Of a DNA stretch of 64,000 nt, positions 39,760-53,604 are shown piece by piece. A model generated the notes under the pieces. That model did no database searches and was not told the origin of the DNA. It saw nothing but the letters and a program-made list of their open reading frames with translations. Made by a program: the position numbers and the translations under genes. Position 1 is the stretch's first letter. Each line of letters opens with the position of its first letter. This DNA comes from Nitrospira defluvii (lineage in GTDB: Bacteria; Nitrospirota; Nitrospiria; Nitrospirales; Nitrospiraceae), in contig FP929003.1 in NCBI GenBank assembly GCA_000196815.1, positions 4,115,501-4,179,500 of the forward strand, read 5' to 3'.

Positions 39760-40134
39760 TCAGACTAAGGCCGTGACGAACTGTTCGAGGCGAGCATGCT
39801 CATCGGCCTTGATCTCATTCACCTCAATCCCGAATTCCTGCCCACGCGACCACCGCACGACCGCGCGGTCTATAAACACGGTCGGATGCTGGTCGGGAAG
39901 AAACACGCAGAGGGTCACGACCGTTCCGGGCTCGACCGGATGCGTCCCGTCGATACGCCACCCATTGAGGGAAAGGTTCCAGGCGACGCCGGTTCCCTGG
40001 AGCGCATCGCTGGAGTAATACACAGAACACTGAACGGGAAAACGACGAAACGACCGTAACTGAAAGGTAGTGGCGACTGCAGCCGGCGAGGAGCGCGGGG
40101 CCAATGGAGCGACCTGTTTGTTGCCACCGGTCAT
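39760..40134 (-). CDS. PilZ-domain protein 3
   Basis: A 124-residue PilZ protein. A 20-residue Ala/Pro-rich lead precedes R27-x3-R31 (RSFRR) and N53-L-S-L-N-G58, the complete c-di-GMP pocket. Core strands VVTLCVFLPDQHP and VVRWSRGQEFGIE match PilZ 2. Its start lies 37 bp from the left end of the integrated element. In the uninterrupted chromosome it would have faced the tRNA-His gene, so insertion may have replaced its upstream region. Confidence 0.8.
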   Translation of the reverse strand: MTGGNKQVAPLAPRSSPAAVATTFQLRSFRRFPVQCSVYYSSDALQGTGVAWNLSLNGWRIDGTHPVEPGTVVTLCVFLPDQHPTVFIDRAVVRWSRGQEFGIEVNEIKADEHARLEQFVTALV

Positions 40135-40170
40135 TTGGCGACCCGCTCAAGTGATTCGCATCCGAAGCCA

Positions 40171-40194
40171 TTGGGGTGAGTGACGGGTTTCGAA
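40171..40194 (+). repeat. attL core (24 bp)
   Basis: TTGGGGTGAGTGACGGGTTT followed by CGAA, identical to 53526-53549. It contains the last 23 bases of the tRNA-His gene (other strand) plus one base. Reading frame GTG AGT GAC GGG TTT CGA continues open to 40361 on the element side. Confidence 0.92.
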
Positions 40195-40361
40195 TTACAT
40201 CGAGCACCCAGCCCCATCAATCAAATCAAGCACTTGCATCTGCAAATCGCGGCAAAAGTGAGCAAATTGTACGCGAATCCGCAACCAGCCGCAACCAACC
40301 TTTAGAGTGCCTTAACCCTGACGGTTCGTCTGATCCTCATCCACCCAAGGAGGAGCAGTGA
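40194..40361 (+). other. Detached integrase C-terminal coding segment
   Basis: In the integrated state this is an orphan frame at the left end: 55 codons and a TGA, in phase with the integrase across the att core. In the circular form it directly continues the integrase after Arg413 (ITSSTQPHQSNQ ... PHPPKEEQ). The tail is hydrophilic (Ser, Gln, Asn, Pro, Glu rich). The joining is computed from the two att copies, not observed. Confidence 0.65.
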
Positions 40362-40441
40362 TGGGGCGTCCGAGCTACGCGGGCAATGGCGCAACGCGTA
40401 ACAACAAAATCGACAACCTGCGCCACCAAACTAGAAGCTGA
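40361..40441 (+). CDS. 26-residue peptide gene at the element's left end
   Basis: ATG at 40361 overlaps the stop of the detached integrase tail (TGATG) and is preceded by AAGGAGGAG at 5 nt, one of the best ribosome binding sites in the window. The product is MGRPSYAGNGATRNNKIDNL plus six residues. It may be a real micropeptide or a translational relay between integrase and the coiled-coil gene 17 bp downstream. No homologue recognised. Confidence 0.4.
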   Translation: MGRPSYAGNGATRNNKIDNLRHQTRS

Positions 40442-40458
40442 CACAAGGAGAGTAAGTC

Positions 40459-41952
40459 ATGGCCAAAGGTCTACTAGCATCCGCGATGCTGTCCGGCTTG
40501 GGGCAAGGGGTCGCGAATGCGGCCGGCACCGGCGTGCAGGTCTACAGCGCAATGATGCTTCAGGAACAGCGCGAGAAGATGGAGCTGCGCAAGATGGAAC
40601 TGATGGAGAAGGCTTCGGCGGCAAGGGAACAGCGCGGCTATGATTTCCAGCGTGGGCTGCAACAGGAGCGGATTGGATCCGACATGGTAAACCGGTCACT
40701 CGATCGAGAAAGCGCCGATGCCAGAGAAGAGCTCGGCCATGACTTTCAACGCGGGATGCAACAGGAACGGATTGGGGCAGACACCCTTAATCGAAGCTTG
40801 GACCGTGGGCATGCCGACGCCCTGGAGGGGCGACGAGAGGAATTCATGACGGGACGGGACCAAACCGCTCTCGGAGGTGACATCCTGCGGGACACACTCC
40901 GATACCGTCACGACCAGGACCGTCGCGACGAAGATCGGCTGGAACATTCTCAGGAGTTTCGCGACAAACTTAAAGAAGAGCGGCGGCAGCATGACGACCG
41001 CATGGGCATTGAACGTGAAAAGCTGAAGAGTGACCGAAAGCTCTCCAAAGAAGATGAGCTGTTTGTGCACATCTTAGGCGAAGAGCTAAAAGATCTTCGC
41101 AAAGAAATTACCGATCCGATGACATCGGCTGAGCGCGTGACAGCAGCACGTCAAGAGTATAACCAGACACGCTCTACATTGATGCAGGTGTTGGGGCACC
41201 AAGAGAAACCAACGTCTCCTGCTAATTTGGCGATCCGCAATCGTTTTGGGAATCCGGCACTGACTGGCAAGAGTACTCCCCAACCACCGCCATCCTCACC
41301 TCCACGCGGAGAACGCGTATTGCCGCCTCAAACAACTCCAACACCTGCTCCAATGCTGCAGAACGGTCCCACCGATGCGCTGGACTATGGAGCCAATCGA
41401 GCCATTGAAGGCGTCAAGAACACACTGGGATCACTCAAGGATTCTCTATTTCCGCAAGGAGCTCAGCCGCTTGCGCCGATCGTCCGCGAACCGAAAGAGG
41501 AGGCGATTTCGACCATTCGCGGAGAGACCAATGCTGCGCTTAAGGATACAGACCAAAAGCAATCAGGCGACAAGGCCCCACGACTCAAGGGAGAAATGGA
41601 GCGGAGCGTAGAGGACATATTCGCAGCGGCGAGAGGAACCGCCGATGAGCTTAACAAGCAGTATGGCAACAACCCGACAACCAACCCGCTTGCGTTCTTT
41701 AATTCGCCTGAGTTCGATAGTCTTAGCCCTCGGAAGCAGCAGGACCTTCGGACTGTGTACCATCAGTTCACGCAAGGGAACATGTCCCGCGATGTGGTGC
41801 TTTCTTCGGTGCATGCGGTCCTCGATGACCCATGGGGAACGATCAAGGCCGAACAGATTGGAAGGCTTTTGAACGGCATGAGGAATGAAAAGTCTGGAGA
41901 GCAACAACGGGTATCCCGAGGCTTCTTGGAGAATACCATGGCGCTGGCGTAA
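40459..41952 (+). CDS. Coiled-coil phage-type protein with 33-residue tandem repeat
   Basis: A 497-residue protein. The N-terminus is small-residue and hydrophobic (GLLASAMLSGLGQGVANAAGTG), like DNA-ejection or pilot proteins. A long charged coiled coil (about 30-230) contains two near-identical copies of a repeat with cores GYDFQRGLQQERIGSDMVNR and GHDFQRGMQQERIGADTLNR. A Pro-rich hinge (about 275-300) leads to a helical C-terminus. A virion-associated or ejection role is inferred from shape and position beside terminase-like genes. Strong RBS AAGGAGAG. Alternatives: scaffold or packaging modifier. Confidence 0.6.
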   Translation: MAKGLLASAMLSGLGQGVANAAGTGVQVYSAMMLQEQREKMELRKMELMEKASAAREQRGYDFQRGLQQERIGSDMVNRSLDRESADAREELGHDFQRGMQQERIGADTLNRSLDRGHADALEGRREEFMTGRDQTALGGDILRDTLRYRHDQDRRDEDRLEHSQEFRDKLKEERRQHDDRMGIEREKLKSDRKLSKEDELFVHILGEELKDLRKEITDPMTSAERVTAARQEYNQTRSTLMQVLGHQEKPTSPANLAIRNRFGNPALTGKSTPQPPPSSPPRGERVLPPQTTPTPAPMLQNGPTDALDYGANRAIEGVKNTLGSLKDSLFPQGAQPLAPIVREPKEEAISTIRGETNAALKDTDQKQSGDKAPRLKGEMERSVEDIFAAARGTADELNKQYGNNPTTNPLAFFNSPEFDSLSPRKQQDLRTVYHQFTQGNMSRDVVLSSVHAVLDDPWGTIKAEQIGRLLNGMRNEKSGEQQRVSRGFLENTMALA

Positions 41953-42161
41953 TGGTATCGTCAGTGACCAGCAATGGCGATGAGACGGAACAACGACTGC
42001 TTCAGGCCAATGAGTTAGTGACTCGACTGACACTATTCCGGAACGGCAAAGTAAAAATGACTTCCGCCCAAGTCTCAGCAGCAAAGATAGTCATTAGGAA
42101 AAGCATTCCGGCTGGTCAAGGTCGACGACCTAAATCTGAAAGGAAGCCAAATGACCGCTGA
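41952..42161 (+). CDS. Small hypothetical phage protein
   Basis: A 69-residue basic protein starting at an ATG that overlaps the preceding stop (TAATG) and ending 11 bp inside the next gene. Tight packing suggests translational coupling. The helix ANELVTRLTLFRNGKVKMTS followed by AQVSAAKIVIRKSIP resembles small DNA-binding or terminase-accessory proteins, without a firm match. Confidence 0.55.
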   Translation: MVSSVTSNGDETEQRLLQANELVTRLTLFRNGKVKMTSAQVSAAKIVIRKSIPAGQGRRPKSERKPNDR

Positions 42162-42513
42162 AAAACAATCAAGTTCAACCAGAGGGGGGAGAAGGCCTGG
42201 GGCCGGCCGAAAGAAAGGAGTACCGAACAAGCTGACGGCAGCGCTCCGGGCAAGACTGGACGAGACCGGGATGACGCCTCTTGAAGCGATGCATAGGGCT
42301 ATGAACGAATTGTGCGCCAAGGCAGACCGTATGGAGCTGGGAAAACATGTCACCATAGATGCCAAGGTAATGGACTATCTGGATTTGTTGGAGCGAGCAG
42401 CCGAAATCGCTTCGAAACTTGCACCGTATCGGCACCCGAAGTTGCAATCAATTGAGCATAAGGGCGAGGGGGGCGGACCGATTCAGCAACGTGTCATCGT
42501 GGAGTTTGTCTAG
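42151..42513 (+). CDS. Terminase-associated small protein (GRRPGAGRKKG type)
   Basis: A 120-residue protein. The N-terminal basic segment GGRRPGAGRKKGVPNKLT is a hallmark of phage proteins found beside or as small terminase subunits. A helical middle (TPLEAMHRAMNEL) and an oligomerisation-type helix (DLLERAAEIASKLAPY) follow. It ends in a beta strand (QRVIVEFV). RBS GAAAGGAAG. DNA recognition for packaging is plausible. Confidence 0.65.
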   Translation: MTAEKQSSSTRGGRRPGAGRKKGVPNKLTAALRARLDETGMTPLEAMHRAMNELCAKADRMELGKHVTIDAKVMDYLDLLERAAEIASKLAPYRHPKLQSIEHKGEGGGPIQQRVIVEFV

Positions 42514-42528
42514 GGCCCGCAGGAACCT

Positions 42529-43107
42529 ATGAGCACTCCACGAACAAAGGCCATCTCCCCTCCTCAGGAAGCATTCTGCCTGCTCATTGTGGCGGGCCAT
42601 AACCAGTCCGACGCCTACCGGAAGGCGTATGACTGTACTCGCATGAAGGCGAAAACCATCAATGAAAAGGCCTCCCGCATGATGGCACTCGGCAAGATTA
42701 AGGCAAGGGTCGCTGAGCTCATACGGCCGGTAATTGCCACGGCCCAAATGAGTCGTGAGCAATGGCTAGAGCAGATTGCTCGCGTAGCCATGTTCGACCC
42801 AAGAAAGATGTTCGATGCCAAGGGGTACCCTATTGGAATTCTTGAACTGGGTGAGAATGAGGCTGCGGCACTGGCAGGCTTCGAATGCTATGAAGACTTT
42901 GCCGGCAAGGGCGAGGAGCGCAAGGCCTCGGGGTATACGAAGAAATTTAGGCTCGTCGATCGACTACGCGCGCTCGAACTGTACGGAAAAGGTATGGCTT
43001 ATTATGCCGAGCGTCAAGAGCACACTGGAAAAGATGGCGGACCGATAAAACTTGAAACCACTCTTACCGCAGAGGAGGCGTATGTCCGTATGGTAAGAGG
43101 AAACTAA
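42529..43107 (+). CDS. Terminase small subunit-like protein (Terminase_2 type)
   Basis: A 192-residue protein. ISPPQEAFCLLIVAGHNQSD and AYRKAYDC followed by INEKASRMMALGKIKARVAEL form the Terminase_2-type helix-turn-helix that binds pac or cos. The C-terminal half (SREQWLEQIARVAMFDPRKMF, VDRLRALELYGKGM) oligomerises in relatives. No large subunit follows; the strand switches instead. A lone small subunit is characteristic of phage satellites that redirect a helper's packaging machine. The packaging site would be expected nearby. Confidence 0.8.
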   Translation: MSTPRTKAISPPQEAFCLLIVAGHNQSDAYRKAYDCTRMKAKTINEKASRMMALGKIKARVAELIRPVIATAQMSREQWLEQIARVAMFDPRKMFDAKGYPIGILELGENEAAALAGFECYEDFAGKGEERKASGYTKKFRLVDRLRALELYGKGMAYYAERQEHTGKDGGPIKLETTLTAEEAYVRMVRGN

Positions 43108-43127
43108 CGCGCCTCGTCGTGTCTCAA

Positions 43128-43616
43128 TCACTTGACTGGGACTGGCTTCAAAAATTCGTCAATCCATCCTTGCAATTCGTCCCAACTGTGAGGGAACAGT
43201 TCTGTAGCTAAACCGCGAAACGGGATGTGAACACCCCATCCAATATACAAATGCTCAGTCTCCCCCAGCATGATAAATCGCCTCCGCTCTTCCTGAAGAA
43301 TCTTTACCTGCCGCTCGAACGGTTGATGCGAATAATTCTGCGCTGGCGTGTCGCACAAAAGGCTCTCCCGGCCTAGAAAATGGAGATCGGCTCCATTCCG
43401 CGTGAACATTCCCGCACAGCGCCCGTAAGAATAGCCTGACCAGTAGTTGAACCAAGCAAAGTGGCCTTTGGGCAACAAGTATAGAACGGAGTATCGAATC
43501 TCCGGGGGAGAGTCGAACTCATTCGCCACTGAACGAGAACGCACGCTGACATAAAGATACGTCCCACTGACTGAGCCTGGAAATGTTCCTGCGGTTTTGT
43601 GCGAAGAGGCAGTCAC
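43128..43616 (-). CDS. Hypothetical cargo protein
   Basis: A 162-residue soluble protein, rich in aromatic residues (YLYVSVRSRS, HFAWFNYWSGYSYGRC, LYIGWGVHIPF). No signal peptide, membrane segment or recognised domain. The GTG start has GGAGGTAATAA upstream, a good RBS. It is the last gene of the reverse-strand block of the element, the position where satellites often carry defence or fitness genes; no function can be assigned. Confidence 0.6.
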   Translation of the reverse strand: MTASSHKTAGTFPGSVSGTYLYVSVRSRSVANEFDSPPEIRYSVLYLLPKGHFAWFNYWSGYSYGRCAGMFTRNGADLHFLGRESLLCDTPAQNYSHQPFERQVKILQEERRRFIMLGETEHLYIGWGVHIPFRGLATELFPHSWDELQGWIDEFLKPVPVK

Positions 43617-43868
43617 TTATTACCTCCGAAGAGGACCCTTGATGATAGCAGGTCTCGGGACCTCAACGAGCCACATACATCAGATATGTTTGGATTGGGG
43701 GATAAATAATCTCACCTTGGTTGGACCATCGGAGCTAGCCGTGTCGAGAAACCATGGTTCCTAGGAATGCGTGATATTTGAATCGTTCGAAGGCCAGAAC
43801 ATGGGGCGAAAGCCTTCCAGGCAATGCGGTGCCTGGTGGTTCCGTTCGGTTCTGGGGCGAAGAGGAGC

Positions 43869-44147
43869 TTACGCGGGAGGAGTGGTCAGGATCGTTTCGA
43901 ATAAGGCGAGAGCTTCAGGGCTTGCCGTGAGACTTGCGGTATCGAGAACGACCGTGCGGCCGTATCTGACCTTCCCCGTATCACGATCCTTCCAGCCGGC
44001 GGAGATCTGGAGTTTCCCGGCCGTGGGGTAGTAACAGATTCGGAGCTTGTCGGTTGTCACCTTGAGCGGGGATTCTTTTTCCCAGTAGGCGTCACCTCCA
44101 GCTTGCGCGTACGCTTTTGTCAAAAAAGCCCTCTCGGCCTTATCCAA
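43869..44147 (-). CDS. Hypothetical protein, possibly a truncated remnant
   Basis: A 92-codon frame with protein-like composition (LRICYYPTAGKLQISAGWKD, VVLDTASLTASPEALALFE). It opens with TTG immediately after an in-frame stop (TAG AAT TTG), with no ribosome binding site. It may therefore be the C-terminal remnant of a longer gene. Codon use is closer to the GC-rich host than to its neighbours in the element. Confidence 0.4.
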   Translation of the reverse strand: MDKAERAFLTKAYAQAGGDAYWEKESPLKVTTDKLRICYYPTAGKLQISAGWKDRDTGKVRYGRTVVLDTASLTASPEALALFETILTTPPA

Positions 44148-44262
44148 ATTCTAGCACAGCCTTGAGTCATGCAGAGCGATGCCCCTCGCTTGTTCGATAG
44201 TCTCATCGTAGACCTGGTAGATGATCATGTTTTCCTCATTGATCGGTCACGAAGGCCACTGT

Positions 44263-44294
44263 ACGTGCAACAACCGGACGCGGTTATTGCACGT
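44263..44294. repeat. Palindrome 1 (GTGCAA-type), 32 bp
   Basis: ACGTGCAACAACCG, spacer GACG, CGGTTATTGCACGT: 14 bp arms with one mismatch. Its right arm is the exact inverse of the left arm of palindrome 2 (12 bp, GTGCAATAACCG). Both have central AC. It lies in the 230 bp gap between the remnant gene and the GIY-YIG gene. No other regulatory signal is clear in that gap. Confidence 0.7.
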
Positions 44295-44377
44295 CCTGAC
44301 GGGGAATCTAGATGCTAGACGGCAGACTCAGTCCCGATCTGGCAGGTAGTCTGCCCATTGAGGAGAAGGGCGGAAGC

Positions 44378-45520
44378 TCAATCACAGTGCTCGTAATTCG
44401 AAGCCTGACAGGTCTTTGACATTGACCGAGCCGTTGAGAGTTGGGCTGGCGTCATTTGCTCCTCTAACGCTCGACAAAAACTTGATGCCCTGGGCTCCCC
44501 GTGCCACGTAGCTAGACTTAACCACATGTAGGCTTTAATCGGGTCAGCGGGTATACCACGGCCCAATTTGTACATCCATCCCAAATAGTACTGTCCTTCA
44601 GCACTCCCTTGCTTTGCTGCCGCACGGAAGCAATCCACTGCGTCCGCATCACTATGCGGAAGGCCGCAGCCATTCATATAGTCTAGCCCTCTCTGCACAA
44701 GCGCCGAGGGATTACCCCATATGGACGGCCCCTGATAATCGAATGGCTGTTCCCGTCTTATTTCTCTTGGCATAGAACCATCCAAAGCGCCTGCCGCAGA
44801 TGTGGACCTATCTGCCTGCACCTCCAACTGAGAACGGCTGAGTGCAATTTTCCGATCTCGCTCCTGCTCAAATTCTCGATACCTCGCAGACATTTTTCGC
44901 CTATTCTCAAAAAATTCAAACAATCCCCATCCAGGAAGCACCGCCCAGAAAACAGCGGACACGATAGCCGCTCCGTCAGTCGTTTTAGGCGCGACAATGC
45001 CAATGAGAAAGAAAACGATAACACCACCGGTAATCCAGTATTGCCAAAATGGGCGAGGCGGACATTGCCGTTCGATGCTCTCATCGAATGCTTTTCGGAT
45101 AGCGGCCTCATCTTTCGCTAGGCGTGCCTGAAACTCCTGGCGCGCAACTGTAGCCTTTCTCTCCTGCTCTCGATCTCGTAGCGCTTGTCGGTGCAGACCC
45201 TCGGCTCGCACTCTTTCTGCACGCTTGTAGGACTCTGTGATCTCCGTTCCCCCAGCTGCCTGTTTAATTGCAGCTATGGCCTCCTCGGGACTGCAGCGGA
45301 ACCATTCTTTATTTTCTCGGCTAGACGACAGGATTCTGTGCGCCCGCTGCTCAATCGCTCGTGGGTCTTCGACTAACACATCGTAGTCGACGACATAGGG
45401 GTGGGGGGACCCGGTATGATTTAATTCACCGGCGCGAAGGTCAGGATCTTTCGAGGAATAACCAACTTTGACCAACCCTTGCATGGCTTTGTTGCTGATG
45501 ACATATACCCATCCCTTCAT
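44378..45520 (-). CDS. GIY-YIG (T5orf172-type) domain - two-TM - Sel1-repeat fusion protein
   Basis: A 380-residue protein (positions below count from the upstream in-frame GTG at 45532). Residues 7-90 are a T5orf172/MUG113-type GIY-YIG domain: GWVYVISN, VKVGYSS, LNHTGSPHPY, then EQRAH and KEWFRC, with the catalytic Glu probably in EQRAH. Residues 100-158 form a charged coiled coil. Two membrane segments lie at about 163-181 and 186-208, a second coiled coil at 209-240, and two Sel1 repeats at about 275-346 (AVDCFRAAAKQGSAEGQYYLG). Three Cys lie near the C-terminus. The combination of a nuclease-type domain with a membrane anchor and a Sel1 sensor suggests a defence effector; that role is inference. 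Confidence 0.75.
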   Translation of the reverse strand: MKGWVYVISNKAMQGLVKVGYSSKDPDLRAGELNHTGSPHPYVVDYDVLVEDPRAIEQRAHRILSSSRENKEWFRCSPEEAIAAIKQAAGGTEITESYKRAERVRAEGLHRQALRDREQERKATVARQEFQARLAKDEAAIRKAFDESIERQCPPRPFWQYWITGGVIVFFLIGIVAPKTTDGAAIVSAVFWAVLPGWGLFEFFENRRKMSARYREFEQERDRKIALSRSQLEVQADRSTSAAGALDGSMPREIRREQPFDYQGPSIWGNPSALVQRGLDYMNGCGLPHSDADAVDCFRAAAKQGSAEGQYYLGWMYKLGRGIPADPIKAYMWLSLATWHGEPRASSFCRALEEQMTPAQLSTARSMSKTCQASNYEHCD

Positions 45521-45596
45521 GCCCAATCCCACATCTTCAGCATCATCACATAGCCAAGTGGGCGCTGGGGTAACAGTTCGACGCCACCCCTGGCGA

Positions 45597-45770
45597 TTAC
45601 AGCTTTTTCTTCTCGCGGCACTTCTTCACGAAGTCTTCGATCGCTATCTCTAATAGTTGATTCGCCGGCATCTTGCGATCCAACGCGATGTGCCTCAATT
45701 CCGTGAGCAATTCCTCTTGCAGTCTCAAGGCAAAGAGCTTTCTGACAACTGGCGACTTAGGTCTAGCCAT
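45597..45770 (-). CDS. Small ribbon-helix-helix-type regulator
   Basis: A 57-residue protein: MARPKSPVVRKLFALRLQEE then a two-helix segment (LRHIALDRKMPANQLLEIAIEDFV) and a Lys-rich end. The strand-helix-helix pattern fits CopG/Arc-type repressors or antitoxins. The ATG at 45770 is preferred over a TTG at 45818. It is divergent from a second RHH-like gene (45884), sharing a 113 bp control region. It directly precedes the GIY-YIG gene on the same strand (76 bp) and could control it. Confidence 0.65.
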   Translation of the reverse strand: MARPKSPVVRKLFALRLQEELLTELRHIALDRKMPANQLLEIAIEDFVKKCREKKKL

Positions 45771-45840
45771 GGCGAGGCCAGAGGTTACCTGAGCACAACA
45801 TACCGTGCAACATGCCAATTGACAGCATTATATTCATTCT

Positions 45841-45873
45841 GATAGCATTAACTACTTGCTATCTACTTATAAT
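45841..45873 (+). promoter_or_regulatory. Operator-like palindrome and -10 box between two RHH genes
   Basis: GATAGCA-N9-TGCTATC (45841-45863) is a perfect 7+7 palindrome. TATAAT follows at 45868-45873, and RBS GGAGGG precedes the ATG at 45884. A related half-site (GACAGCATTA) lies at 45821. A repressor bound at the palindrome would cover the -35 region of the rightward promoter. Confidence 0.65.
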
Positions 45874-45883
45874 ACGGAGGGCC

Positions 45884-46054
45884 ATGACGATGCCGCGACT
45901 AATGGTTCAGCTTACCGAATCCCTCAAAGCAAAACTTGATGCAGTGCGGAAGCAAGGTTTCACCGCCAGTGGTCTGATTCGGCATTTACTCACTCAACAT
46001 TTCGACCAGCCTAAGAACAGGCAGAAAGGGAAGGCACATGCTGACAAACGTTAA
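45884..46054 (+). CDS. Small ribbon-helix-helix-type regulator (rightward)
   Basis: A 56-residue protein: MTMPRLMVQLTESLKAKLDA, then VRKQGFTASGLIRHLLTQHF and a basic tail. Strand-helix-helix arrangement of CopG-type proteins. RBS CGGAGGG. An ATG 6 bp further on is an alternative start. It is divergent from the other RHH gene with an operator-like palindrome in between, the layout of a satellite or phage regulatory switch. Its end overlaps the next gene by 17 bp. Confidence 0.65.
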   Translation: MTMPRLMVQLTESLKAKLDAVRKQGFTASGLIRHLLTQHFDQPKNRQKGKAHADKR

Positions 46055-46325
46055 AAGTAACGAAAGGCGAACGCTTTGGTTGGTTTGCGACTCACGCGCA
46101 AACGGCAAGTGGATACACCTGGGGCACTTCCTAGCAAGCCGGAAGGAGGGGGAACGGAAGCTGCGGTGGCTGCGTCAATGGCACCCAACGGCGTTCCTGA
46201 TGGAGGCAGATGCAAAGAAATGCCTTGTGATGGATGACAATCCTCTTCCCGTTAGGTCGCCAAAAGAAAGTCCAGCCGTGACGGAGAGGCCGCGACTTCG
46301 CTTGGTCGGGCTCGTTTCGAACTGA
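46038..46325 (+). CDS. Small hypothetical protein
   Basis: A 95-residue basic protein (TLWLVCDSRANGKWIHLGHF, ERKLRWLRQWHPTAFLMEA). The ATG overlaps the preceding gene and has AGGGAAGG upstream. The tryptophan-rich pattern resembles small phage single-strand-binding or Arc-like adaptors, but no family can be named. Part of the rightward early operon of the element. Confidence 0.55.
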   Translation: MLTNVKSNERRTLWLVCDSRANGKWIHLGHFLASRKEGERKLRWLRQWHPTAFLMEADAKKCLVMDDNPLPVRSPKESPAVTERPRLRLVGLVSN

Positions 46326-46373
46326 ACCGGCTTCACGGTGGCGACGCGGCTGAAAAAGCAGAAAGGCAATTCG

Positions 46374-46661
46374 ATGACAATCCATTCTGAGATGCCCGAT
46401 GAAGCTAGACAAACCAGCTCCACTCCAAAGACACATGGCGCTGAGGCCATCCGCCGCGAGTTCTTGGAAAGCGAGCGCGCCAAGTGGCTCACGATCAAGG
46501 AAGCCGCCTTCGTCCTGAGCGTGTGCCAGAACACCATCTTTTGCATGATCAGTAACGGCTTGCCGGTACGGCGCGAGGGGAAAGTCATCCGGATTCATGT
46601 CGAGGATTTACGCCCCCGTGACATGCAGGAGAGTCGCGAGGTGACACGCAGAATTCGATGA
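46374..46661 (+). CDS. HTH_17/AlpA-type excisionase-like regulator
   Basis: A 95-residue protein. After a hydrophilic lead, WLTIKEAAFVLSVCQNTIF followed by MISNGLPVRREGKVIRIHVEDL is a winged helix-turn-helix of the excisionase/AlpA class, which bends DNA at att or activates satellite genes. AGAAAGG lies 7 nt from the chosen ATG. One of three HTH_17-like proteins in the element (others at 49091 and 51872). Confidence 0.8.
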   Translation: MTIHSEMPDEARQTSSTPKTHGAEAIRREFLESERAKWLTIKEAAFVLSVCQNTIFCMISNGLPVRREGKVIRIHVEDLRPRDMQESREVTRRIR

Positions 46662-46743
46662 CAATCCTGACCTGAAACTCTGAGAACACTTTCAGAAATT
46701 TGATATTTCGAACAACAAATAAACTGGGGAAGGAGAAATCACT

Positions 46744-47202
46744 ATGGCAACTAGTACCGCGAGCAGTCGTAAGACAGACAACCAAGTAGTGGCTAAAAAA
46801 TCTAGAGAACGAATCGTCATGCTCGAGGAGCGCCCTCGCCCGGAGTGGTTCGTAAAAATCAAAACTTCCACCGGTGAAACCCAGTGGTTTGTGCGTATAT
46901 CGATTACCGGCTTATGCGTGCGACGTTACGGCCCATTCCCAAACAAGCAAGCCTGCTGTCTGTTCCTAGATTCAGCCGTAAATGAATTGATTGATGGAGT
47001 CATGGAGCTTACTGACGTCCAGGATAAATACCGGCTGCCAAATCGGCCCTTCCAGAATCGTGGTGGTCAATATCCCATTATTGAGCGCGAGCTGATCTTG
47101 CATGCACCGACGGTCAATCCTCGAACTGTCGTACGTCGTACAGCAAGAACAACGATTAGGCATGGCATCAGACGAGTCACTCAGAGAACCTCTGTGCAAT
47201 AA
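46744..47202 (+). CDS. Hypothetical basic protein
   Basis: A 152-residue protein with a compact middle (PEWFVKIKTSTGETQWFVRI, RRYGPFPNKQACCLFLDSAV) and an Arg/Thr-rich tail. The WFVKI...FVRI pattern suggests a small beta-sheet nucleic-acid-binding module; unassigned. RBS GGAAGGAG. Its stop codon lies inside palindrome 2, directly upstream of the serine recombinase. Confidence 0.55.
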   Translation: MATSTASSRKTDNQVVAKKSRERIVMLEERPRPEWFVKIKTSTGETQWFVRISITGLCVRRYGPFPNKQACCLFLDSAVNELIDGVMELTDVQDKYRLPNRPFQNRGGQYPIIERELILHAPTVNPRTVVRRTARTTIRHGIRRVTQRTSVQ

Positions 47203-47220
47203 CCGACCGGTCATTGCACA
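47193..47220. repeat. Palindrome 2 (GTGCAA-type), 28 bp, before the serine recombinase gene
   Basis: TGTGCAATAACCGA and CCGGTCATTGCACA form a 28 bp dyad with one mismatch and central AC. Twenty-eight bp with a 2 bp centre is the size of a resolvase crossover site. It shares the 12-mer GTGCAATAACCG with palindrome 1 at 44263 in inverse orientation. It lies 24 bp before the recombinase ATG. Confidence 0.75.
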
Positions 47221-47244
47221 TCGCAAGTCCTGGAGGAGGGACTT

Positions 47245-47940
47245 ATGAAGGCAATCGGCTACTGCAGAGTTTCAACCGAAGGGCAAGCGCAGGACGGGGT
47301 AAGTTTGGCCGCGCAGCAAGCCCGGATATTCGCATGGTGTGAATTGAATGGGTATGGACTTATGGAACTTCATGCTGACGCCGGCCTATCCGGTTGTCGG
47401 TCTGATAATCGTCCAGGCCTCCAAGCGGCGCTTTCAGCGGCCTGTAGAGAGGGGGCGGCGTTAATTGTCTACAGCCTCAGTCGTTTGGCTCGCTCAACGA
47501 AGGATGCCATCTCGATCAGTGACCGCCTCGCCAAAAGCGGAGCGGACCTGGTCAGCCTTTCCGAAAAGCTCGACACAGCATCGGCCGCAGGGAAAATGAT
47601 TTTTCGTATGTTGGCTGTTTTGGCAGAATTCGAGCGGGATCAAGTGGCTGAACGAACGAAAGGAGCCCTTGGCCACCTTAGGAGCAAAGGCAAACGGATT
47701 AGCGGCCGTCTTCCCTTTGGATACGATCTTGCCGAGGATGGAGAAACACTGTTGCTCAATTCCACCGAACAGTCCGGCCTTCAGATAATCGCTGACCTGA
47801 GAACCCAAGGGTTCGGACGGCGTCGCATCGCAGATCACCTGAACAAGCAGGGCGTTCCATCGAAGACGGGAAAGTTGTGGTCTCCGCAAGCAGTCGGAGG
47901 AATTCTCAAGCGCGGCCTTGTTGCCACGTCGGTGAATTGA
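47245..47940 (+). CDS. Serine recombinase (resolvase/invertase with recombinase domain)
   Basis: A 231-residue serine recombinase. The catalytic domain has nucleophile Ser10 (YCRVSTEGQAQDG), DAGLSGCRSDNRPGL, YSLSRLARSTKD and the long helix LAVLAEFERDQVAERTKGAL. A short C-terminal Recombinase domain carries FGYDLAEDGETLLLN and an HTH (RTQGFGRRRIADHLNKQGV). Much shorter than phage large-serine integrases; it is closer to resolvases and invertases. The element already has a tyrosine integrase, so this enzyme probably has a second job such as inversion or dimer resolution. RBS TGGAGGAGGG. Confidence 0.9.
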   Translation: MKAIGYCRVSTEGQAQDGVSLAAQQARIFAWCELNGYGLMELHADAGLSGCRSDNRPGLQAALSAACREGAALIVYSLSRLARSTKDAISISDRLAKSGADLVSLSEKLDTASAAGKMIFRMLAVLAEFERDQVAERTKGALGHLRSKGKRISGRLPFGYDLAEDGETLLLNSTEQSGLQIIADLRTQGFGRRRIADHLNKQGVPSKTGKLWSPQAVGGILKRGLVATSVN

Positions 47941-48055
47941 TACCGTACCAGCACGATTCTAGAACGGGGCAACGGCTGGCCTCATGAACCAGCCGGCGGG
48001 CGTTCCTGGCGCCCGTGCCCCCCATCCTCATCCAGGAACCCGACAGGAGGGGAAT

Positions 48056-48868
48056 ATGCCTCGAAAACGAAAAAACGGGCCTCTATCTGCAGGGATGGAT
48101 TTTGCCCTTGAAGTAGTTCGCAGCGTAGTGGATGAGAGACCATTAGCTCCTGCGAAATTCACTTCAGAGCGAAAGCCAAAGCAGAAAGCGCATGTCCCTG
48201 AGTCTCTCATTTGGGATCTGCACGTTAAGCATCCGCCTGATGGACCGTTCCCATTTCTGACTAAGGCCGGCCTAAAAAAGCTACCATCTCTATACCGAGA
48301 TGGCCACGTCGATAAATGGGGAAGGATCGCCCTGGACGAATACCAAATTGCATATGCCAGGTCGCAGGACCCACTGCTTGTCTTGGAGGCCTTCATGTGG
48401 GCTCATCGGAACAAGCTTTACCCACCCATTTGGGTTCTGGAGATCTTGTGCTCTGCACTCGAAAAATACATTAAGGACGGAAGGCGCGAAACTATAGAGC
48501 AGCTATTGAACCTATCCGGGGTACCTGGCGGAGGATCTGTATTTATAATTCGAGCTAAAAGACGCAGAGATCGGATGTTGGCAGAGTGGATTTGCTGGTA
48601 CGCTGATCTAAAGCCGTGCAGCCTTGTCCAGGCAGTAAAGGTTGTCGCTGATTATTGGGACGAGTGTGTGCGAAAGGGGATTTATCAATTCGGCTATCGC
48701 TTAGACAAATCAATACAGAAGGAGGCCCTCATTCAATATTACGAAAAGCGATGGAAGCGAGAGTTTGGTTGTGATGAGAAGTATTTGGATATTCAAGAAC
48801 GTTTGCGCAGCTTAACCGCCGAACAAAAAAAGGAGTTCGTAAGAAAGATAGAGAGAAAACAATTCTAG
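48056..48868 (+). CDS. Hypothetical protein of the element
   Basis: A 270-residue soluble, basic, helix-rich protein (LLVLEAFMWAHRNKLYPPIW, IIRAKRRRDRMLAEWICWY, EEYL-type C-terminal helices). No recognised domain, no membrane segment. The start is at 48056 after GACAGGAGGGG. It is AT-rich relative to the host. Position between the recombinase and the replication module offers no clear role. Confidence 0.6.
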   Translation: MPRKRKNGPLSAGMDFALEVVRSVVDERPLAPAKFTSERKPKQKAHVPESLIWDLHVKHPPDGPFPFLTKAGLKKLPSLYRDGHVDKWGRIALDEYQIAYARSQDPLLVLEAFMWAHRNKLYPPIWVLEILCSALEKYIKDGRRETIEQLLNLSGVPGGGSVFIIRAKRRRDRMLAEWICWYADLKPCSLVQAVKVVADYWDECVRKGIYQFGYRLDKSIQKEALIQYYEKRWKREFGCDEKYLDIQERLRSLTAEQKKEFVRKIERKQF

Positions 48869-48996
48869 TTCTTGCAGCCGCTCCTTCCCTTTGAACGCAC
48901 CCCCGCAGACTCTCTCAAGTTCCGCTCTTGGCATCTCTACTTCACATTTTTGAATAGCGCCACCATGCGAATGAAAGCCGCACATGGGGCGAATAA

Positions 48997-49025
48997 CTGT
49001 ACAAATTTAAATCTGATTCGTACAG
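48997..49025. promoter_or_regulatory. CTGTAC inverted repeat before the replication module
   Basis: CTGTAC-N17-GTACAG in the AT-rich gap between the gene ending at 48868 and the small HTH gene at 49091. The spacer contains AAATTTAAAT. Likely operator of the replication operon; the regulator is unknown. Confidence 0.45.
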
Positions 49026-49090
49026 CGAGCGCGCTTAGAAGCTTCGGTATAAAGAAGGCATGGATTTGGCGGACAGGCTGGAGGAAGACC

Positions 49091-49267
49091 ATGAATCAAA
49101 CTTTGGTGCCGGTAAAAGAAATCGTCGCACAGGGAGTTGGTGGCAGATCAAGTATTTACCAGATGATTAAGGTTGGCCAGATCCCATCATACCGTGTCGG
49201 CAAGCGGGGCATTCGCGTTTGCCTAAGTGAGGTACTGTCGGTGCTCCGCCGCCCAGAAATGAAATAA
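49091..49267 (+). CDS. Small HTH_17-type DNA-binding protein
   Basis: A 58-residue protein almost entirely made of a helix-turn-helix: LVPVKEIVAQGVGGRSSIYQ, then MIKVGQIPSYRVGKRGIRVC. This is the excisionase/AlpA pattern. The ATG at 49091 follows GGAGGAAGACC. First gene of the replication run, about 65 bp after the CTGTAC inverted repeat. Xis or an activator of replication genes is likely. Confidence 0.75.
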   Translation: MNQTLVPVKEIVAQGVGGRSSIYQMIKVGQIPSYRVGKRGIRVCLSEVLSVLRRPEMK

Positions 49268-49271
49268 AAAC

Positions 49272-49304
49272 GCCGCGCCCCGGGGTGCAATCCCAAAGCG
49301 CGGC
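49272..49304. promoter_or_regulatory. GCCGCGC/GCGCGGC inverted repeat
   Basis: Seven-bp arms with a 19 nt loop in the short gap after the HTH gene and just before the next RBS. No T-run follows. It could be an attenuator, a weak terminator or an RNA processing hairpin. Confidence 0.3.
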
Positions 49305-49323
49305 AAAACCGAGGAGCGAACAA

Positions 49324-49625
49324 ATGGTACCTGCTAATCTATCAGGCAACACCGCGCCGATCAATCCCCTTAAAACCAGTTCTAAGGTTTCCAGGGCATC
49401 CTCTGTCCCTTCGCATCTTGGCCACAAACCCAACCTCCACGCATGCCAAGGCTCAATCGCTATTCGGATGGAACTAGCCGGCCTAATGTCTACAGAAATC
49501 ATCGCCCATGATTCAGCGATGGAAGATAGACTCGAGGAGTTCCTAGGGGCCGCGTCCCCTCTCCTAAAACAGCTGCAGGAGACATTGATTGCCTTTGGCA
49601 AGGAAGACATTGGAGTGACCCACTG

Positions 49626-49626
<1 letters not shown>
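49324..49626 (+). CDS. Small hypothetical protein of the replication operon
   Basis: A 100-residue protein. Low-complexity Ser/Pro lead, then helices (AIRMELAGLMSTEIIAHDSA, MEDRLEEFLGAASPLLKQL). GAGGAG lies 7 nt before the ATG at 49324. The stop overlaps the initiator start (TGATG), so the two are translationally coupled; an accessory to replication is plausible. Confidence 0.6.
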
Positions 49627-50530
<904 letters not shown>

Positions 50531-50534
<4 letters not shown>

Positions 50535-51868
50535 CCATGACGACTATCGAACACCCCACGATGCCACCCCACGATCTGGACGCTGAGCGGGCCATCCTTG
50601 GAGCTATTCTGCTCTGCCCTGCAGTCTTGGCCACTGTGGGGGAACTCGTCCAGGAGACAGACTTTTACGATTCCCATCACCAAGGCATCTTCTCGGCAAT
50701 GTGCCGGCTGGAGAACGCGGGAGGCGCAATTGATCACATCGTGGTCGCCGAAGAATTGAAACGGAGAGGACTCCTTGAGAAGGTTGGCGGAAGCGCGGCG
50801 GTCGCTGAACTGATCGAAACCGTCGCCACGGCCGCCAATGTCACGACCCACTGTCGCGTGGTGCAGGAAAAAGCCCGGCGCCGAGCCGTGCGACAAATGG
50901 CCTTTGACTTGTTCACCCGATCGACCGACGAGCAGGAGACGCTGGATGCGCTGATCGACCAGGCAGAGCAGACCATCTTCGGAGGACAGGATCTAGGCCA
51001 AGCTTCCTCCAGAATCACAACCGCCCAGCTGGTCAACGAACGCCTGCACCATCTGGAAACCCTATACAAGAGCCGACGACCTTTCACGGGTATTTCGACA
51101 GGCTTTGCCACCTTGGATCGCCTCACGGCCGGACTTCAACCCGGCACCCTGAACATCATCGCTGCTCGTCCCAGCATGGGGAAAACTGCCCTCGCGCTTT
51201 CAATTGCCGCTCATGTCGCCCTGGAAACGAACCTGCCCGTCCAGATTTTCAGCTTGGAAATGTCCAAAGAGGAGTTGATCGATCGCTTGTTTGCGCTCAC
51301 CGCCCAGATCGATCTTCACGCCATCCGAACAGGAAAGGTATCGAGTGCTGATTGGTTTGATCTCGCTACTTCGGCAGATCAACTCTCGAACGCGCCCCTG
51401 TTCATCGAGGATTCAGGCTCTATCACCATGGCTCAACTGCGTCGGCGCGCCCGACGAGCAAAGGCCAAAACAGGACTCGCCTTGATGATCGTGGATTATC
51501 TCCAGCTCATGACACCAAGCTTGCGGGGAGAATCACGCCAGCAAGAAATTAGCGACATGTCGCGTGCCCTGAAGCTCCTGGCCAAGGAATTGGGCGTCCC
51601 GATCATCGCCCTCTCTCAGCTCAATCGAAAAGTCGAAGAGCGAGGCGACAAGCGGCCGATGCTGTCTGACCTTCGGGAAAGCGGTTCGATTGAACAGGAT
51701 GCTGACTTGGTCGCGTTCATCTATCGGGACGAAGTGTACAACCCGGACTCTCTCGACAAAGGCCTTGCGGAAATCCTTGTCCGGAAACACCGCAGCGGAC
51801 CGGTGGGTGAGCAGAAGCTGTTATTCCGAGAACAGTATGCCAAGTTCGAGGATCTGCCAGCGGACTGA
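50531..51868 (+). CDS. DnaB-type replicative helicase of the element
   Basis: A 445-residue DnaB-family helicase. The N-terminal DnaB domain starts at PPHDLDAERAILGAILLCP. Walker A is ARPSMGKTALAL (Lys218), Walker B LMIVDYLQLM, with the DnaB signature VPIIALSQLNRKVEERGDKR and SGSIEQDADLVAFIYRDE. The ATG overlaps the initiator stop (ATGA). An own helicase next to an initiator means the element can drive its replication largely independently of host loading. Host-like composition suggests a phage copy of chromosomal descent. Confidence 0.93.
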
Positions 51869-51871
51869 CTG

Positions 51872-52207
51872 ATGCGACAGGATCAACCGAGTGCCTTACA
51901 AGCAGATGTGTCTTTGGGGGAACGGGGACGCGTGGCGCCGGCTGCCTCGTCAGCCCTGCAGCTTCCTGGATACCTCGACTTGAAGGCCTTGGCCGGTTAC
52001 AGTTCGTGTTCGGTTCGCTGGTTGCGGGACCGCCTGACCGATCCTCTGGCCCCTCTGCCCCATCATCGTATCGGGGGCAAGATTCTGATCAGGCGAGAGG
52101 ATTTTGATGTGTGGATCGGCCAATTCCGAACGGTCCGGCCCTCGACCGAGTTGGGCGCACTCGTTGATGATGTCCTGGACGGTTTGTTCAGCAAACAGCC
52201 GTCTTGA
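51872..52207 (+). CDS. HTH DNA-binding protein preceding the integrase
   Basis: A 111-residue protein. A disordered lead of about 40 residues precedes a winged HTH (LKALAGYSSCSVRWLRDRLT, then IGGKILIRREDFDVWIGQF) of the excisionase/MerR-like class. It ends 102 bp before the integrase start. As the HTH protein next to int it is the best candidate for the recombination directionality factor (Xis). Confidence 0.75.
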   Translation: MRQDQPSALQADVSLGERGRVAPAASSALQLPGYLDLKALAGYSSCSVRWLRDRLTDPLAPLPHHRIGGKILIRREDFDVWIGQFRTVRPSTELGALVDDVLDGLFSKQPS

Positions 52208-52309
52208 TAGGATGGCAGCGGAGCATATCCAAATGGACCTGAACACTCACGATAACCGAACCCCAGAACAATGGTGCGAGGCCGCACCTTCGCACGCGAG
52301 GCTGATCCC

Positions 52310-53584
52310 ATGGGCGTGAAGATTCGACAATGGAAGGGTGCCTGGTGGATCTTCATCGATCACCAAGGCATGCGGAAGGCCAAGCGGATCGGCATCGGCG
52401 AGCCGGGCAAGAAGGCCGCCAAGCTCGCCGCACAGCAGATTCAAGCCCGTCTCGCCCTAGGGCAGCCAGCGTTTCAGGGCCAGAAGTCTGGCATGACACT
52501 CGAACGCTATACCGAAGTCTTCTTGGAGCGAATTGAGCACGCGCGGAAGCGCACAACCTTTGTCGACTACACCAAGATCCTGAATCGGGACATCTTGCCG
52601 ACCTTGCGAGGTCTCGACCTGCAGGACATTACCCGCGAAAAGGTCAAAGCTATGGCCCTGGCTGGCCTCCAGAGGGGACAATCACCGAAAACCATGCAGA
52701 ACATCGTCCGCTGCCTCAGCAGCCTTCTGAGCCACGCCCTGGAAGATAATCTGGTCACGGTGAATCCTGCGCTCAAACCAGGCAAGTTTCTCCCGAAGAT
52801 CACGAAGCGCCACAAGATCACGCCACTGACGAGGGAAGAAGTCGCCTTGCTAATTGAGACCGCCAAGGCCAAGCTTCCTCGCTACTATCCGCTCTTCCTC
52901 TGCGCGGTCCGTACCGGTCTTCGCATGGGCGAGTTGCTCGCACTCCAGTGGGGTGACATCGACTGGCAGGGCCGGTTCATCGAGGTTCAACGGAACTACA
53001 CCCATTTCCGACTGACGACACCAAAGAGCGGAGAGAGTCGACGGGTGGACATGTCGAGGGAGTTGGCCCAGACGCTTCGAGACCTCCTCACAGAGCGCCA
53101 AATTGAGGCTGCAGCGAGCCAGTGGACAGACACCCCGGCCTGGGTCTTCTGCAGTGAGACCGGGGGACTCCTGCACCCGCACAACTTGCGCGATCGCGTG
53201 TTCTACGGCCTCCTGACGAAAGCGAAGCTCAGGAAGGTACGATTTCACGACCTGCGACACACGTTCGCGTCACTGCTCCTGCAGCAGGGGGAAAGTCTGG
53301 TCTACGTGAAGGAACAGATGGGGCATTCATCAATTCAGGTGACCGTGGATCTGTACGGACATCTGATTCCGGGCGGGAACAAACAGGCTGTCGATCGGCT
53401 CGATACCCCGGCGAGTCAGTGGCTTCCCGAGGCTCAATCCGCAACCTCCGCGCAACCGCCGAGGCATGAGACCCCGGCGGCTTCGTCCGATCAGTCGATC
53501 TATCAGGTAGTTGCGAGAGGAGAGGTTGGGGTGAGTGACGGGTTTCGAACCCGCGACCTCCGGATCCACAATCCGGCGCTCTAA
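52310..53584 (+). CDS. Tyrosine integrase whose 3' end crosses the att core
   Basis: A 424-residue integrase of the phage/ICE type. The N-terminal Arm-DNA-binding region starts at MGVKIRQWKG; the SAM-like core-binding domain spans about 60-150. Catalytic Arg205, His313, Arg316, His339 and Tyr349 are all present. The frame runs through the att core: codons to Arg413 are element DNA including the core, and the last 11 residues (TRDLRIHNPAL) are encoded by the antisense of tRNA-His. On excision those 11 are replaced by a 55-residue tail encoded at 40194-40361. An ATG at 52271 is an alternative, weaker start. Confidence 0.92.
   Translation: MGVKIRQWKGAWWIFIDHQGMRKAKRIGIGEPGKKAAKLAAQQIQARLALGQPAFQGQKSGMTLERYTEVFLERIEHARKRTTFVDYTKILNRDILPTLRGLDLQDITREKVKAMALAGLQRGQSPKTMQNIVRCLSSLLSHALEDNLVTVNPALKPGKFLPKITKRHKITPLTREEVALLIETAKAKLPRYYPLFLCAVRTGLRMGELLALQWGDIDWQGRFIEVQRNYTHFRLTTPKSGESRRVDMSRELAQTLRDLLTERQIEAAASQWTDTPAWVFCSETGGLLHPHNLRDRVFYGLLTKAKLRKVRFHDLRHTFASLLLQQGESLVYVKEQMGHSSIQVTVDLYGHLIPGGNKQAVDRLDTPASQWLPEAQSATSAQPPRHETPAASSDQSIYQVVARGEVGVSDGFRTRDLRIHNPAL
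53526..53549 (+). repeat. attR core (24 bp)
   Basis: Identical to 40171-40194. It covers the CCA end, acceptor strand and most of the T-arm of tRNA-His on the other strand, and lies inside the integrase reading frame. Confidence 0.92.
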
Positions 53585-53604
53585 CCAGCTGAGCTACACC
53601 CACC
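53527..53604 (-). tRNA. tRNA-His (anticodon GTG)
   Basis: On the minus strand: the extra 5' G of tRNA-His, acceptor arm GTGGGTG pairing with CACTCAC (one G-T pair), D-arm AGCTCAGCTGGTTAGAGC, anticodon stem CCGGA/TCCGG with loop TTGTGGA (anticodon GTG), T-arm GCGGG-TTCGAAA-CCCGT, discriminator C and encoded CCA. The gene is intact; the element's core restores its 3' end. The following 171 bp (53605-53775) show no gene. Confidence 0.97.

Follow-up and report, generated by a model that had tools for sequence, protein, structure and literature searches.

Genome context of the element

The window analysed here, a stretch of 64,000 nucleotides from the genome of Nitrospira defluvii (4.317 Mb, one contig), contains a 13-kb mobile element that bears its own insertion site inside the 3' end of its integrase gene (int). 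The element (40171-53549, about 13.36 kb) is delimited by two exact copies of the 24-bp core TTGGGGTGAGTGACGGGTTTCGAA, at 40171-40194 and 53526-53549, which are the only ones in the window; the 24 bp represent the block of identity, which cannot be extended on either side, and the crossover point lies somewhere within this block. A PilZ gene flanks the left core, and at 17 other Nitrospira loci a PilZ gene is found directly beside an intact tRNA-His gene with the same core (empty attB); the element ends are independently supported by these loci, at which the same PilZ–tRNA-His junction is present and the element is absent. The features of the locus are summarized in Table 1. In genome G028, an empty PilZ–tRNA-His junction is found on contig C28 (L164), yet both element ends are present on contigs C53 and C63, which may reflect a further insertion site, a mixture of strains or partial excision in the population.

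The element encodes a terminase small subunit, a DnaB-like helicase, a DnaD-like loader, a serine recombinase and two helix-turn-helix genes, and no match to capsid, portal or tail families was obtained for the subset of its ORFs that was tested; judged by these predictions, the gene content is satellite-like. Elsewhere in this genome (G000:C1:1565816-1566927; L002, L007) lies a further integrase relative that has decayed, with 45% identity and two internal TGA codons.

Table 1. Features of the integrase gene, the attachment site and the predicted free-state tail (positions in the window)
Feature	Position	Strand	Remarks
Core, far junction (detached 3' end of tRNA-His)	40171..40194	+	Exact repeat; empty-site junctions at 17 congeneric loci
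Free-state C-terminal tail frame, 55 residues + stop	40194..40361	+	Joined to int by predicted excision; open in 19/19 left ends
Putative arm-type site pair, other side of core, TCCGCAACCAGCCGCAACC	40278..40296	+	83 bp from core
Ribosome-binding-like AAGGAGGAG, then TGATG	40347..40363	+	Tail stop overlaps ATG of short ORF
Candidate excisionase gene (helix-turn-helix), immediately upstream of int	51872..52207	+	HTH_17 E 3.3e-4 (below gathering score); phrog_1840 excisionase E 1.4e-4; both scores weak
Tyrosine-recombinase integrase gene, integrated form, 424 aa	52310..53584	+	PF00589 E 1.5e-26; last 11 residues antisense tRNA-His
Putative arm-type site pair inside int, TCCGCAACCTCCGCGCAACC	53438..53457	+	CGCAACC pair; 68 bp from core; encodes most of SATSAQP motif
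Core, integrase-side junction	53526..53549	+	Within codons GVSDGFR; exact repeat of 40171-40194
Intact tRNA-His(GTG), attB target	53527..53603	-	ARAGORN

The integrase and its two predicted C-termini

The integrase was assigned to the tyrosine recombinases by its catalytic hexad (R205, K239, H313, R316, H339 and Y349, invariant in 26 relatives) and by its fold, which matches the Tn1549 and lambda integrases in Foldseek; an alternative upstream ATG at 52271 is possible, with which the protein would comprise 437 residues. In the AlphaFold model, both the catalytic domain and an N-terminal sheet of three strands, of the kind that binds arm sites, are predicted with confidence, and residues 371-424 have pLDDT values below 50.

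The core occupies codons 407-413, and past it the integrated gene encodes TRDLRIHNPAL, i.e. 11 residues read antisense through tRNA-His, with the stop at 53584. An earlier note on this DNA had reported the core in the integrase frame at both ends, an integrated gene ending in antisense tRNA-His residues, and an integrase of 468 instead of 424 residues after joining of the cores; the first two statements were borne out directly, and the third was reproduced as a prediction, with the joined ORF ending at 40361. The free form is a prediction because circular attP was found neither in viral_contigs nor in 175 Nitrospiraceae genomes. Since the swap starts after residue 413, 64 residues beyond the catalytic tyrosine and within a segment that is predicted to be disordered, both forms should be catalytically competent.

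Distribution among relatives

Integrases that read into an antisense tRNA are represented by at least 40 relatives in Nitrospira, Acidobacteria and Deltaproteobacteria. A scripted classification of 83 loci, including the window's own copy (L001), yielded 44 overlaps of int with an antisense tRNA (a few of which carry internal stops, hence 'at least 40'), 11 loci with a tRNA nearby and no overlap, 21 with none, and seven uncertain cases. The targeted tRNAs are those for His, Met, Arg, Leu, Lys and Thr. Both cores could be located in six elements at tRNA-His (12-18 kb) and in elements at tRNA-Arg, tRNA-Thr and tRNA-Leu. In the tRNA-Leu element L029, the DNA outside the left core (L029:2730-2834) looks like the terminal part of a further int gene, which suggests tandem elements in this tRNA-Leu gene. 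Two contigs with integrases of the same family are filed as Klebsiella pneumoniae (L022) and Nitrosospira (L058, whose integrase is Nitrospira-like); these organism names are probably binning errors. No phage genome with a close int was found, the best phage matches being only about 32% identical.

Comparison with known systems

For phage Mx8, attP is described as lying within the coding sequence of int, such that integration makes a new 3' end of the gene (PMC6070905, citing Tojo 1996 and Magrini 1999), and the authors of Islander allow for integrase overlap because attP is spanned by the integrases of Mx8 and SSV (PMC4383910). The present element has the same elements of layout as far as the review describes them, a comparison at the level of the arrangement: a tyrosine integrase, attP inside int, and a new int 3' end after integration. 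The core is part of the int reading frame, as is also the case in relatives at several tRNA genes, and the C-terminus would be replaced with the ORF kept intact (468 vs 424 residues). In contrast to Mx8, which is an isolated phage of which both forms were tested according to that description, the Nitrospira element is known from its sequence, targets tRNA-His, and has a frame that runs on to an overlap with the next gene. State-dependent int C-termini are already known from Mx8, and we judge the Nitrospira case to be a further example.

The precedent that the earlier note had offered was a mycobacteriophage repressor. Phage BPs does carry attP in its repressor gene, with a longer viral form that bears a degradation tag (PMC4557955), and shares with the present element an attP inside a gene and the resulting state-dependent C-termini; the gene is, however, a repressor there and an integrase here, and the Mx8 integrase is the closer precedent (PMC6070905, PMC4383910). 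In archaeal integrases of the SSV type, the att site likewise lies inside the gene for the enzyme, in many cases at a tRNA gene, and integrases that disrupt their own gene are regarded as exclusively archaeal in a review (PMC8371274). On integration, an SSV-type integrase loses its N-terminal part and its activity, whereas the Nitrospira int exchanges a disordered C-terminal tail and keeps its catalytic domain whole; a suicidal integrase of this type was rejected because the core follows the catalytic Y349. The Nitrospira gene is thus changed rather than disrupted.

In phage lambda, the DNA on the other side of attP (sib) is continuous with int only when the genome is circular, and it influences how int is expressed; sib acts on the mRNA, and the Int protein is unchanged. 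The Nitrospira element resembles lambda in that DNA beyond attP would join int only in the circle, but differs in that no terminator-like hairpin of the sib kind was found at 40100-40700 in the window. The sib control of lambda int is mentioned in PMC6379469.

Repeat pairs around the core

Clustered pairs of CGCAACC occur only twice in the window, at 53438 and at 40278, i.e. on either side of the core when the element ends are joined. Of 18 distinct int genes at tRNA-His, 17 have the int-side pair (CGCAACC-type) at one fixed distance to the core, with widely differing residues in between, and the distance of the far-side pair to the core is identical in all 19 left ends that were compared. Furthermore, both arms are alike within single elements, with GCAACCCCCGCGCAACCACTTT in each arm of L024 and GCACCC repeats in each arm of L029. 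By sequence, putative arm-type sites are repeated on both sides of the core, as in a bivalent (lambda-like) attP, and we infer that the CGCAACC pairs serve as arm-type sites. We favour an arrangement in which the whole attP module is embedded in the 3' end of int, with one pair in int, the core, and the second pair beyond the left core. The int-side pair encodes a conserved SAT-x-AQP peptide, and the recurrence of this motif near integrase C-termini suggests that it is largely the imprint of arm-type DNA sites.

The predicted free-state tail

A stretch of 54 open codons is no rarity in this DNA: it arises in 12% of local shuffles and follows 34% of start points chosen arbitrarily in the window. 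Therefore, a single locus cannot establish a functional tail, and relatives were compared. Only this comparison gives the open frame meaning. A pattern search in 175 Nitrospiraceae genomes yielded 19 tRNA-His left ends from 18 genomes, which are related sequences and include the window's own copy as well as L134 at a different core. The tail frame is open for 42-59 codons in 19 of 19; the closing of frame 40194-40361 in homologues, which the earlier note had named as evidence against its reading, was not observed in the tRNA-His lineage. Outside this lineage the tail comprises 22, 45 or 2 residues, which gives a range of 2 to 59 residues across the lineages of the integrase family. In the tRNA-Arg members, int runs into this region in a different phase and terminates after 22 residues.

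The amino-acid sequence of the tail is not conserved. For the 84 bp between core and repeats, the differences amount to 0.36, 0.29 and 0.25 at the three codon positions, with a pN/pS of 0.94, equal to that of shuffled columns (null 0.93); neither test indicates selection at the amino-acid level in this block, and such selection was rejected as a candidate. The pattern fits a constraint on the DNA, not on the protein: what is conserved is the spacing of the DNA and, in the tRNA-His lineage, the openness of the frame.

These results do not support the proposal of the earlier note that stability, activity or directionality could depend on integration state through the tail. A genuine state switch would require that a free form with an acidic, Ser-rich tail and an integrated form with a tRNA-coded tail ending in -NPAL differ in activity, specificity or half-life and so bias integration versus excision. 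We consider such a switch unlikely: the tail amino acids are without purifying selection, the tail length varies from 2 to 59 residues between lineages, and the swapped segment is predicted to be disordered and lies 64 residues beyond the catalytic tyrosine. On its side stand the frame kept open in 19 of 19, the tagged viral repressor of BPs (PMC4557955), and the Mx8 int, with exactly the same layout, whose forms are reported to differ in specificity in the description consulted (PMC6070905).

Stops in the tail frame are rarer than expected. In a simulation on a tree and without a frame constraint, stops were expected in 6.5-9 of the 19 tails and none was observed (P 0-0.03 depending on settings; 108 bp of related sequences, with the tree derived from the same block). 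In most left ends the tail stop overlaps a recognisable start of the next ORF (ATGA, GTGA, TTGA or TGATG), and the core-to-stop distance is 2 mod 3 in all five length classes, i.e. in phase with the start of the next gene. This next ORF often begins with MSxRLxLP, and intact copies carry a TSCPD domain; in several relatives (left ends L138 and L135) the first gene beside attP is predicted to encode a TSCPD-domain protein.

A translational coupling of int to the left-end gene in the circle is possible on these grounds. It is weaker as a present-day function because the next gene amounts to a short ORF in the window and has decayed or been truncated in many relatives, with only the first 16-50 codons open, and it is not general because the tRNA-Arg relatives stop after 22 residues. 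An extended version appears quite unlikely to us, namely that excision fuses int in frame across attP and brings the left-end gene into the int operon only in the circle, that the tRNA-coded C-terminus -AL (a possible protease signal) is swapped for the acidic tail, and that Int abundance and expression of the left-end gene would both report the integration state.

Finally, it is very unlikely that the tail frame is incidental and that base composition and the attachment-site constraint alone keep the DNA after the core open: the frequency of 54 open codons in comparable stretches (12-34%), a second frame of the same tail DNA that is also long in most relatives, and the differing lengths between lineages agree with it, but not the absence of stops in 19 tails or the single phase of the five length classes with the next gene's start, nor one of the two tRNA-Arg left ends (L160), in which int enters in another phase and a stop has arisen in the frame homologous to the His tail, a single case and a weak natural control for frame retention.

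Proposed mechanism

The reading that we prefer, and hold to be probable, is that of a compact int–attP module in which the swap is automatic, direction is set by a separate excisionase-like gene, and the tail residues drift in a frame that is probably kept open through coupling. Such a module would target the 3' end of tRNA-His, with the whole attP contained in the free-form int ORF: an arm pair in the codons of the disordered linker, the core, and the second arm pair in the 55 codons of the tail. When the module recombines with tRNA-His, the 55-residue tail would be traded for the 11 antisense-tRNA residues, and excision would restore the tail; the swap would follow automatically because the attachment site is written inside int. 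With an identical catalytic domain in both states, both forms should be competent, and direction may be set by the gene upstream of int that resembles an excisionase. The tail would be largely free to drift in its amino acids because it is the DNA that is constrained as attachment site, and the frame would remain stop-free in the tRNA-His lineage probably because ribosomes on the circle terminate int translation where the next gene starts, which would couple this translation to the left-end gene. The C-terminal swap would then be mainly a consequence of the compact module, with a regulatory effect being possible.

The Mx8-type arrangement is usually treated as an oddity; in this integrase family, which extends over Nitrospira, Acidobacteria and Deltaproteobacteria, it is common. 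If the coupling is true, excision would also switch the expression of the gene beside attP.
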